Virus record (IMG/VR): IMGVR_UViG_3300024518_004211
Location: 1 to 60,317 of that record
Direction: 5' to 3' (one strand)
From: a virus
DNA length: 60,317 nucleotides
The notes under the pieces were generated by a model. That model saw nothing but the letters and a program-made list of their open reading frames with translations, did no database searches and was not told the DNA's origin. A program made the translations under genes and the position numbers. Shown piece by piece: positions 3,982-35,308 of the stretch; position 1 is the stretch's first letter; each line of letters opens with the position of its first letter.

Positions 3982-4341
3982 TCACCACCCTCCCATCGGC
4001 ACAAACCCCTCAACCGCCGCACACACCTCCACCCCCACATCCTGGCACATGGGGTAGCCGGGTCGCTCGTCGAGCCAGGCGCAGGTGGTGTTCCCCGCCA
4101 CCAGCCGTGACAGGTGCCTGAATGCGTCTATCTCGAACGAGCAGAAGCCGAGGTGTCCGCGTTCGTGCGTGCACCGGGTGAACCCGTCCGTCACAACGCA
4201 CCTGAACCGCAGCGAGTGCCCCTGTGCCGCCTCGCCCTCCTCACCCGCCCCCTGAGCCGCAAATCCGCCGTCGAGCGATTCTGGGGCGGTTTCTGTCGGT
4301 TCTGTGGGCTTGTCGGGGGTGGTTGGTTCGGCGGGGGTCAT
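3982..4341 (-). CDS. hypothetical Cys-rich protein, 119 aa
   Basis: The first 40 residues are a Pro/Thr/Glu-rich disordered tail. The rest is a small globular domain with six Cys and three His (RCVVTDGFTRCTHERGHLG; then CAW, MCQDV and CAAV), so zinc binding is plausible. The start at 4341 overlaps the stop of the preceding gene as ATGA. No named family recognised. Confidence 0.55.
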   Translation of the reverse strand: MTPAEPTTPDKPTEPTETAPESLDGGFAAQGAGEEGEAAQGHSLRFRCVVTDGFTRCTHERGHLGFCSFEIDAFRHLSRLVAGNTTCAWLDERPGYPMCQDVGVEVCAAVEGFVPMGGW

Positions 4342-4646
4342 GCCTGCCTCCTCAGATACGCAGCGTCCTTCGCGCCATCAAGCGACACCGTCAGCCCGAC
4401 GTAGAAGCCGAACAGCCCCACGCACAGATCCGGTCCGTGGTTCGTCCTCACGATCGCCATTGCCGGCCACGGACGAAGCGGGATGTCCTCGTCGTGGCCC
4501 CAACCGAACCGGGCGCACAGCAGGCCGCCCGACGGTGGCGCGATCAGGAGCGCGACGACGAACAGGGAATCCCCGTCCTCGTTTCCGGTCGAGGCGAACC
4601 ACGAATACCCGAACGCCTTCCGGATCCTCGTCCTGTATGCCTTCAT
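4338..4646 (-). CDS. hypothetical protein, 102 aa
   Basis: Contains a hydrophobic stretch (SLFVVALLIAPPSGG, about residues 27-41) and a second near the end (LCVGLFGFYVGLTV), so a two-segment membrane protein is possible. The ATG at 4646 overlaps the stop of the small upstream gene (ATGA). Function unknown. Confidence 0.55.
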   Translation of the reverse strand: MKAYRTRIRKAFGYSWFASTGNEDGDSLFVVALLIAPPSGGLLCARFGWGHDEDIPLRPWPAMAIVRTNHGPDLCVGLFGFYVGLTVSLDGAKDAAYLRRQA

Positions 4647-4813
4647 CGCTCCCTCCCACTCACCGTCGCCCTCGCCGCACCCGTCAGCCGCACCACGCGA
4701 CCCGAGCCCCAGATCCTGACCACGGCCAATGTCGGCGCCTCGAAGATCAGCGTGCCGATCATCTTGACGCTGAGTGTGGGTCTACAGGTAACCGTCATCG
4801 TTTCCGTCTCCAT
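4643..4813 (-). CDS. small hypothetical protein, 56 aa
   Basis: Short beta-rich protein (TVTCRPTLSVKMIGTLIF) that overlaps the 3' end of the helicase gene by about 30 bases. The start may be ATG 4813 or ATG 4798. The stop overlaps the next start by four bases, which supports it as a real gene. Function unknown. Confidence 0.4.
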   Translation of the reverse strand: METETMTVTCRPTLSVKMIGTLIFEAPTLAVVRIWGSGRVVRLTGAARATVSGRER

Positions 4814-33392: not shown

Positions 33393-33616
33393 GGTTCGTC
33401 TCCATGGTGATCGTCTTCGCCAGCGAGGCCGTCCAACCACTGGACGCCCTCTGCGAACACGTCGCCATAGCGAGGCTCGCGGAACTTGCGCGGCGCCGTC
33501 TTCGCCGCCCGTCCTCGCCCCTCAACCGGTCGGCCAGCGTCACCCTCTGGGCACGCGAGCACCTCAGGCGGGAGCGGTCTGCGGGCGTCCTGGGCGGCTT
33601 TGGATAGCGGCTTCAT
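33389..33616 (-). CDS. hypothetical protein, 75 aa
   Basis: Polar, Pro/Arg/Glu/Gly-rich sequence without clear secondary structure. ATGA overlaps with the holin-like gene upstream and the Trp-rich gene downstream place it in the coupled lysis chain. Function unknown. Confidence 0.45.
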   Translation of the reverse strand: MKPLSKAAQDARRPLPPEVLACPEGDAGRPVEGRGRAAKTAPRKFREPRYGDVFAEGVQWLDGLAGEDDHHGDEP

Positions 33617-33942
33617 GGCTCATCCCCCAGAACAGGCGCGGCAACAGCACCGGCCTCCATCGCGGCCAGAATAGCCCCGCCGTTCCCACTCGTCAGTCCG
33701 CCCGATTTGCCGTCCCTGTACGCGATGCCGCCGACCTCAGCGCCGACGACGATCCCGAAAGCCGCGAACCACGTCGACCACAGGCCCAGGACCACGCCCA
33801 CATTGCCGGCCTGAGCGGGCGTCAGGAGCACGTAGGCGGACGCTGTGAGCAGGAAGGCGCCGAGGACTACCAGCACGGTCTTTCCGTAGGTGGCGCCTTG
33901 GACGAGGGTTGAGGGTGGGCGGGGGAGTGGTGGAAGACTCAT
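33613..33942 (-). CDS. holin-like membrane protein, 109 aa
   Basis: Two membrane helices (residues about 22-40, VLVVLGAFLLTASAYVLLT, and about 48-70, VVLGLWSTWFAAFGIVVGAE) joined by a short loop, with a charged C-terminal tail: the class II/III holin look. It would open the membrane to release the amidase. Its ATG overlaps the stop of the frameshifted release-factor frame (ATGA), so ribosomes must read that frame to re-initiate here. No independent strong ribosome-binding site is seen. Confidence 0.6.
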   Translation of the reverse strand: MSLPPLPRPPSTLVQGATYGKTVLVVLGAFLLTASAYVLLTPAQAGNVGVVLGLWSTWFAAFGIVVGAEVGGIAYRDGKSGGLTSGNGGAILAAMEAGAVAAPVLGDEP

Positions 33943-34617
33943 TGCAGGCCCTCAATGTGGCCGCGCAGGTAGTCCTTCACCCGGACGCGCTTTCCGGTGA
34001 CATGGTCAACCACCTGCCCGCGCTGGATGGCGATGGTGCGCCGCTTGTCGCCACGCATCCCGGAACCGACTTGCTTGCGCCTCTTTCCGTCGCGAGCGGA
34101 TGACGCCCTCTGCTGCTTCGCCTCCATCAACCGGGCGCGGAGGATGCTGTAGGCGGTCTCCGTGTTCTGCGTCTGTGAGCGCTCCGACTCCACCCTGACG
34201 GTGATGCCTGTCGGGCGGTGGGTCAACTGGACGGCGGAGTCGGTGACGTTCTTGTGCTGCCCGCCCGCACCGGATCCTCGGCACGTCTTGCGGTCCACGT
34301 CCCGCTTGTTGATAGTCACCTCTGACCGCGTAGGCTCACGGAGTACGGCTACCGTCACGGTCGATGTGTGAACCCTGCCGCTTCGTTCGGTCGGCGGAAC
34401 GCGCTGCCACCTGTGGCCGCCAGCCTCGTTTGCGAACGCCTTTTCCGCACCCTTTCCGGTGGCGCGGAACACGATGATCCCGGGCCGCTGTTCTGCAATC
34501 TCGACGCTAAAGCCGCCTCCTGGCCGCCATCTTCGCGTAGATCGCGAACTGGTCGCCCACAAGGAGCTTCGCGTCTGCGCCGCCCTCTGCTGCCCTGATC
34601 TCGATGATGATCGACAT
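33939..34617 (-). CDS. truncated RF1-type peptide chain release factor with programmed +1 frameshift
   Basis: Predicted to read stop codons and release peptides. ATG 34617 (AGGAGG upstream) opens 36 codons ending ..AKMAARRRL, then TAG at 34509-34507. A +1 shift after CTT continues with SVEIAEQRPG to the TGA at 33939: 225 aa in total. The joined protein matches RF1/RF2 across the junction: EIRAAEGGADAKLLVGDQFA, then GGHRWQRVPPTERSGRVHTS, then GSGAGGQHKNVTDSAV. The recognition tripeptide P-P-T (74-76) is RF1-like (PxT, UAA/UAG) and not RF2-like (SPF). GGQ is at 118-120. Domain 1 (~100 residues) is missing. It lies between endolysin and holin. A disabling indel or assembly error is the alternative, but the frameshift signal argues against it. 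Confidence 0.8.
34506..34521 (-). promoter_or_regulatory. prfB-like +1 frameshift signal at a UAG codon
   Basis: Reading leftward: AGGAGG (34521-34516), CGG, CTT (34512-34510), TAG (34509-34507), C (34506). E. coli prfB has AGGGGG, three bases, CTT, TGA, C. The element matches in order, spacing and the weak stop context (stop followed by C); only the stop codon differs, UAG for UGA. The Shine-Dalgarno-like hexamer would pair with 16S rRNA and push the ribosome forward from CUU to UUU when release at UAG is slow. Confidence 0.8.
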
Positions 34618-34660
34618 GGTGCCTCCTGCTGGGAGGATAACACCGATTCGACCAAACAGA

Positions 34661-35308
34661 TCACGTCCATGCCCCCTCAATCCGCAACAGCCCCATGGTC
34701 GTAGCCGTCACCGAATGCGCCACCCACTGGTCCAGCATGTGATCGCCCATCCCGGTCAAAGCCGAGACCACGAACACCTCCAACAGCAGGCCGAACGACT
34801 TCCCCGGGAATCCGTAGGCCGGAGCGACCACTGCGGCACAGTTCCTCTGCCACCGCTGATCCGAGTTCTGGTCGCACGCCAGCAACCGTGTCCGCTTCCC
34901 ACCGCGCATCTGGGCAGGTAGGTACTGGTCCCACGCATTGGCGAGCAGGACACCGTAGCGGCCCCCGTACATGCTTCTGGGGTCGCGGTTGATGAGGGCG
35001 TGACGGACGTTGATGTCGGCGGACGCGTCGGTGTGCAGGTAGCAGACCACATGCCGATCGTCGGGGTGGGCCGAGATGACCGCTTTGATCTGCTTGTTCC
35101 GGCTCGAGTAGCCGCCATCCGGGTAGATGTGGACGACCCAGCCGAGGCCAGTCATTGCGGTGTCAAGGTCCGCGCAGATGCGTCGGGCGATCATGGCCTC
35201 GGACTCGTCGGCGCTGATCTTTCCGTCGCCGTCGATGTCCGCGCCTGAGCCGGGGTCGTATCGGTTGCCCTTGTTTCCGTGCCCACAGACGGCATGCAGT
35301 CGCATCAT
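34661..35308 (-). CDS. endolysin, N-acetylmuramoyl-L-alanine amidase (Amidase_3 type) with EF-hand loop
   Basis: 215 aa. Cuts the amide bond between muramic acid and the stem peptide. Zinc ligands of the Amidase_3 fold: His10 (CGHGNKG), a Glu at 35 or 37, and His92 (YLHTDAS). Inserted between the first two is residues 24-35, DIDGDGKISADE, a perfect EF-hand calcium loop (D-x-D-x-D-G-x-I-x-x-x-E). Calcium may therefore shape the active site. No signal peptide is seen, so a holin is needed. It is the first gene of the lysis cluster, 43 bases before the release-factor gene. Confidence 0.8.
   Translation of the reverse strand: MMRLHAVCGHGNKGNRYDPGSGADIDGDGKISADESEAMIARRICADLDTAMTGLGWVVHIYPDGGYSSRNKQIKAVISAHPDDRHVVCYLHTDASADINVRHALINRDPRSMYGGRYGVLLANAWDQYLPAQMRGGKRTRLLACDQNSDQRWQRNCAAVVAPAYGFPGKSFGLLLEVFVVSALTGMGDHMLDQWVAHSVTATTMGLLRIEGAWT

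Follow-up and report, generated by a model that had tools for sequence, protein, structure and literature searches.

A virus gene carries a stop codon embedded in a +1 frameshift signal and encodes, as judged from sequence, a class-I release factor descended from RF1 and consisting of domains 2-4. The gene lies in a 60-kb virus record, referred to in its whole length as the window, which has a G+C content of 65% and contains terminase, tape-measure and helicase genes. In a sample of 125 non-identical family members, 117 carry a stop gate, either of this +1 form or as in-frame stops, and eight are uninterrupted. The gate is best read as a conserved feature of a backup factor, and as a means by which failing termination would induce it. 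Specifically, the mRNA-borne stop gate would probably sense slow termination and yield an RF1-type factor without domain 1. The RF2 frameshift gate is a textbook case of autoregulation, and it is a standing question why RF1 lacks a counterpart.

The gate string in the window, AGG AGG CGG CTT TAG C, follows 36 codons. The start codon, the codon count and the string are all present on the minus strand, as the original prediction had them (Table 1). Dropping one base at CTT-T joins the 36 codons to 189 codons in the +1 frame, giving a protein of 225 aa. Frame-by-frame inspection revealed that the protein of the zero-frame segment is conserved in the same frame in relatives. An internal start producing a separate +1 protein was rejected: the 243-aa +1 ORF from position 34670 has a non-homologous N-terminus, and the conserved N-terminus is in frame 0. 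Recoding of the window phage was ruled out by TGA being its commonest stop, ending 57 of the 73 called ORFs (TAG, 13; TAA, 3). A search of the window for tRNA genes found none. The release factor gene sits downstream of the tail genes, between minus-strand genes at 34661-35308 and 33613-33942. Pfam and PHROGs searches named neither of these flanking genes; by eye, the larger bears some resemblance to a cell-wall amidase.

Table 1. Positions of gene and gate features in the window, and of the member region in one huge phage.
Feature	Record	Positions	Strand	Remark
Start Shine-Dalgarno (SD) AGGAGG	window	34622..34627	-	read directly; 4 bases before ATG 34617
Zero-frame segment, 36 codons from ATG 34617, MSIIIEIRAAEGGADAKLLVGDQFAIYAKMAARRRL	window	34510..34617	-	PCRF beginning
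Internal SD-like hexamer AGGAGG	window	34516..34521	-	3 nt before CTT; read directly
Slippery Leu codon CTT	window	34510..34512	-	CUU-U with T34509
Gate stop TAG, then C34506	window	34507..34509	-	read directly
+1-frame segment, 189 codons	window	33942..34508	-	remaining codon-recognition domain and GGQ domain
PPT, RF1-type PxT recognition tripeptide	window	34389..34397	-	read directly; family alignment
GGQ, peptidyl-tRNA hydrolysis motif	window	34257..34265	-	read directly
Terminal TGA ending the joined frame	window	33939..33941	-	read directly
Member region L204 of the 735-kb phage	LR756501.1	357468-360094		two in-frame UGA

The joined protein was analyzed using profile searches. It matched both of the domain models against which the original prediction had proposed searching it: Pfam RF-1 over the whole domain (95.9 bits) and Pfam PCRF over profile positions 101-194 only (67.9 bits). 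Against the NCBIfam models, it scored 206-209 bits for prfA, in a match beginning at position 105 of 347, versus 128 bits for prfB. The score for the RF-H model, TIGR03072, was 80 bits, below the cut-off of 166.65. The starting points of the PCRF and prfA matches bear out the predicted absence of domain 1, the N-terminal helical domain. Because this domain is missing, the joined protein is not a canonical prfA. Residues 4-220 align to E. coli RF1 chains in the Protein Data Bank. At the RF1 recognition positions, the window protein has Gln, PPT, His and Thr, with Asp replacing the canonical Glu. The motifs and the much higher prfA score agree with the RF1-type core, containing P-P-T and GGQ, that had been predicted.

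The fold was modelled on natural family members, including the ungated member L011, in place of the joined window protein. The model of L011 had a mean pLDDT of 91 and a TM score of 0.90 to ribosome-bound RF1. In this model, the gate position falls between a helix (14-33) and a strand (37-44), a placement from which it is predicted that the 36-aa fragment could not hold release activity.

Relatives were collected by scanning viral contigs and one genome per bacterial species, followed by frame-by-frame inspection. The viral scan retained the best 80 of 223 relatives, and the family counts are thus those of a sample. Ninety-two non-identical loci, window included, are joined in the +1 frame across CTT, a stop and one base: 56 in viral contigs, again counting the window, and 36 in genome contigs. 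The gate stop is TGA in 70 of these, TAG in 19 and TAA in three. As had been claimed for the window alone, the junction lies at the recoding signal; it does so in all 92, which is far beyond chance. In 25 of the 125 members, the +1 gate is replaced by one or two in-frame stops. Nineteen of these have a single UGA, and six have two stops approximately eight codons apart (UGA and UGA in four, UGA and UAG in two). The position of the gate also varies: +1 gates occur at codon ~36 or 46, and in-frame gates at about codon 35, 40 or 46-49. The CTT-TGA gate lies at codon 46 in Achromobacter, Novimethylophilus, a Hydrogenophilales and a further proteobacterial MAG, and the relatives in Variovorax, Jiella and Rhodovibrio carry in-frame UGA. 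GGQ is present in all 125 members. A further eleven scan hits proved to be ordinary RF1 genes of full length, and their frames were open.

Some individual loci depart from these patterns. In L084 (six-frame region 4001-4672) and L089 (3197-3862), codon 41 is UGA and codon 49 is UAG, and their full translation would need bypass of one RF2-only and one RF1-only stop. Extra frame breaks occur near the gate in L144 and L104, as a missing T or a second downstream shift; these are possibly sequencing errors.

The nucleotides of the +1 element are more constrained than its protein requires. CTT precedes the gate stop in 92/92 +1 members, whereas it accounts for 11% of the Leu codons at other sites of these genes. 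Where Arg is encoded at the SD-like position, the codon is AGG in 46 of 48 cases, compared with 202/2351 (9%) elsewhere (Fisher p = 8e-45), and for CGG just before it the figures are 70/81 and 446/2351 (p = 2e-37); the rows compared are related, and these p values overstate their independence. The base following the stop is C in 76% of the +1 members, and 13 of the 92 gates have no recognisable SD-like stretch. Given the bias in synonymous codons at the SD-like and slippery codons, protein-level selection cannot account for the element. This extreme codon choice is evidently nucleotide-level selection for slippage. The element that the original prediction described, AGGAGG followed by CTT, TAG and C, is confirmed as conserved among the relatives, with variation in the stop codon.

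A one-base frame difference in a single contig would look the same if it were a sequencing or assembly indel, or if the gene were a pseudogene. This explanation is hardly credible and is refuted for the family: the junction recurs in 92 non-identical loci, which stem from different assemblies, from genomes of cultured bacteria and from one curated phage genome; conservation of the protein extends over both frames; and nucleotide-level selection is apparent at the junction itself. Relatives with an uninterrupted frame, which would likewise have spoken against a genuine gate, are confined to the eight of 125 noted above.

Family members are also found in the curated genomes of huge phages. The record LR745208 (485 kb) contains a member with a +1 gate, and LR756511 (595 kb) contains an uninterrupted relative. 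Members with two in-frame UGA codons occur in LR745206 (634 kb) and LR756501 (735 kb), and members with one in LR756504 and LR756502; overall, the records of 634-642 kb hold members with one or two. We considered whether UGA is read as sense in such genomes. Across stretches of 20 kb from four huge phages, TGA occurred 2-6 times inside ORFs, compared with 49-69 occurrences of TGG, and served as a stop, which argues against UGA-sense recoding in these phages. Among the in-frame-UGA loci as a whole, ORF coverage and stop usage, which are heuristic measures, mostly fit the standard code, and recoding was rejected as the cause of the in-frame UGA. The in-frame UGA in the family is most simply taken as programmed readthrough.

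Maximum-likelihood analysis placed a branch with an SH-aLRT of 97 between the family and canonical RF1 and RF2; the uninterrupted L091 falls on the RF1 side of this branch. About 16 exchanges between TAG and TGA gates map onto the tree, and eight of these lie on well-supported branches. No covariation of the gate stop with His/Gln or with PPT was detected on the tree, where informative pairs are few. Recognition positions were numbered as Glu119 and His193 of Thermus RF1, an assignment that follows from alignment and from the RF1 structures. At the Glu119-aligned position, 123 of 125 members have Asp, whereas 11/11 canonical RF1 compared have Glu; at the His193-aligned position, 39 of 125 members have Gln. 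PPT is the most common recognition tripeptide. Five members (L015, L036, L038, L087 and L094) have a shortened recognition loop and have lost PPT but retain GGQ and the gate, which in L038 is an in-frame UGA. Codon reading may be changed in these five.

Both phages and bacterial genomes contribute family loci, and the bacteria are mostly Myxococcota. Six related loci around Nannocystis have ordinary chromosomal flanks encoding a prolyl oligopeptidase, a FemAB-like protein and a Clp ATPase. A search of 29 genomes of the Nannocystis family revealed the gated factor in about ten, beside full-length RF1/RF2-like proteins. The bacterial hosts sampled also encode full-length proteins with an RF-1 domain and the usual size of RF1 or RF2, and the gated factor is therefore an extra copy. 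In Nannocystis exedens (G002, C1:626663-627295), the RF2-like gene appears uninterrupted, reading open for 357 aa without a stop in the matched region, while the extra RF1-type gene of Nannocystis is gated by UGA.

No neighbouring gene is shared generally across the family loci; NADAR-like, HNH and GIY-YIG genes recur in a few. RtcB was present in only five of 44 records with relatives, usually far from the gated factor, and no match was seen in the neighbourhood of the window's own gene. A partnership with RtcB, as with RF-H, is thus not general. In Novimethylophilus (L173:3720-5933), a gene combining AAA_33, a calcineurin-like phosphoesterase and a T4-type RNA ligase ends shortly upstream of the gated factor. 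This arrangement suggests RNA repair beside the factor in Novimethylophilus, and it is not general in the family.

We propose the following course of events at the window gate. Prompt termination at codon 37 would leave only the 36-aa fragment. Were host release factors scarce, trapped or blocked, termination at the gate would be slow, and tRNA-Leu could slip from CUU to UUU, aided by base-pairing between 16S rRNA and the AGGAGG upstream. The ribosome would then go on in the +1 frame and complete the 225-aa backup release factor. We infer slippage at the gate, its rise on failing termination, and peptide release by the product. The spread of gates in the family, mostly UGA, with some UAA and some double in-frame stops, points to a general sensor of termination stress. 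Counting against a sensor are the 13 gates without an SD-like stretch and the eight uninterrupted relatives; moreover, steady low expression through the gate would leave the same sequences.

A stricter scheme is autoregulation of the RF1 type, in which the product, by reading UAG, re-establishes termination at that codon and closes its own gate. The window combines UAG with the Gln, PxT, His and Thr recognition residues, and UAG gates occur in 19 members. However, UGA, which RF1 does not read, is the stop in 70 of the 92 +1-joined relatives, most of which have the same recognition motif; strict self-codon feedback is therefore not the general rule. The 16 stop swaps, with no covariation detected among the few informative pairs, also speak against this scheme, which we consider doubtful. 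An RF1-type factor induced by slow UGA decoding would not alone relieve UGA, and the UGA-gated members would have either relaxed codon reading, through the Asp and Gln changes, or a circuit without feedback. The original prediction of a prfB-like loop for UAG consequently stands in part: the gate, the RF1-type factor and the UAG are all found in the window, where a self-limiting RF1/UAG loop is possible, the gate stop being the codon that the factor should read, but the loop does not hold as a rule. Similarly, the proposed sensing of UAG-termination capacity fails as a generality in view of the UAG/UGA swaps, the lack of detected covariation and the 25 members with in-frame stops. A serious rival to a termination sensor, although on balance unlikely, is an RF-H-like role in which the factor rescues ribosomes jammed or damaged in conflicts, stalled termination, as a mark of attack, opening the gate, and acts on abnormal or several codons. 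Domain 1 is missing here as in RF-H, tip residues are altered, the recognition loop is shortened in five members, phage genomes are a conflict setting, and an RNA kinase-phosphatase-ligase gene lies directly upstream in one case, that of Novimethylophilus. The scarcity and distance of RtcB in the searched virus records argue otherwise, as do the RF-H score far below its cut-off and the RF1 recognition residues kept in most members. Finally, the gate might sense nothing and simply keep expression low and constant, an extra release factor being harmful. Indeed, over-expressed RF1 and, more strongly, RF2 lower fitness in B. subtilis (PMC12421855). We regard this account as improbable: a weak start would be a simpler route, yet the window start has a strong SD, and the repeated stop-based gates, some of them double and with stops freely exchanged, argue for termination as the input.

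The preferred reading remains the gate as a sensor of slow termination. A broader version is evenly balanced in our judgement: that accessory factors without domain 1, in phages of up to 735 kb and in bacteria, are expressed only through a gate that evolved several times, in forms comprising +1 shifts at UGA, UAG or UAA, two codon positions, in-frame UGA and two serial stops. If true, the factors would serve as a reserve that is induced when termination fails, perhaps with relaxed codon reading, and a double gate of UGA plus UAG would require termination by RF1 and by RF2 alike to fail. Both sorts of gate, +1 and in-frame, occur in RF1-type genes here, among many phages and culturable bacteria such as Nannocystis and Achromobacter. 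If these gates respond to failing termination, the family represents a reserve release factor turned on by the fault that it repairs.

The closest known element is that of prfB, for which pairing of the SD-like stretch, slippage at CUU and competition with the release factor are known (PMC12421855). The gated family shares with prfB the SD-like hexamer, the 3-nt spacer, CTT, the stop and usually a following C, as well as the location early in a release factor gene with the functional protein in the +1 frame. It differs in that the factor is RF1-type and without domain 1, the stop is UGA, UAG or UAA, and the gate lies inside the codon-recognition domain, at another codon in some relatives. The cognate UGA stop of prfB is not found in the window, where the stop is UAG, formally the cognate of an RF1-type factor. 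According to a 2025 survey, UAG is absent from the prfB motif and frameshifting from prfA (PMC12421855), and a 2016 review of recoding described both in-frame-UGA RF2 genes and a UAG/RF1 counterpart as unknown (PMC5009743). A 2019 survey of release factors mentions neither phages nor frameshifting. In the openly accessible journal literature, we found no earlier report of a gated RF1-type factor, in keeping with the original prediction, which knew of none.

With canonical RF1, the family shares the fold, GGQ, the PxT motif and the best sequence scores; it differs in lacking domain 1, in forming a separate clade (SH-aLRT 97), in having Asp at the E119 position and in being gated. RF-H (prfH) is likewise a GGQ-containing extra copy of approximately 200-230 aa without domain 1 (PMC1586002, PMC6514570). 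Unlike RF-H, the gated factors have an RF1-type recognition loop, no regular RtcB partner and scores well below the RF-H cut-off, and no frameshift has been reported for RF-H. The nearest viral parallel is the class-I release factor of Mimivirus and Megavirus, a viral gene needing recoding at internal stops, which in Mimivirus is expressed by frameshift plus readthrough (PMC3521657). That factor is eukaryotic/archaeal class-I, with an unrelated fold and host, and the resemblance is convergent. Several GenBank records from the huge-phage study of Al-Shayeb 2020 contain members of the gated family; that study lists release factors (RF1/RF2 genes), with no frameshift mentioned in its text (PMC7162821). 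Overall, we rate the frameshift device as known, and the class of factor and the several forms of gate as new.
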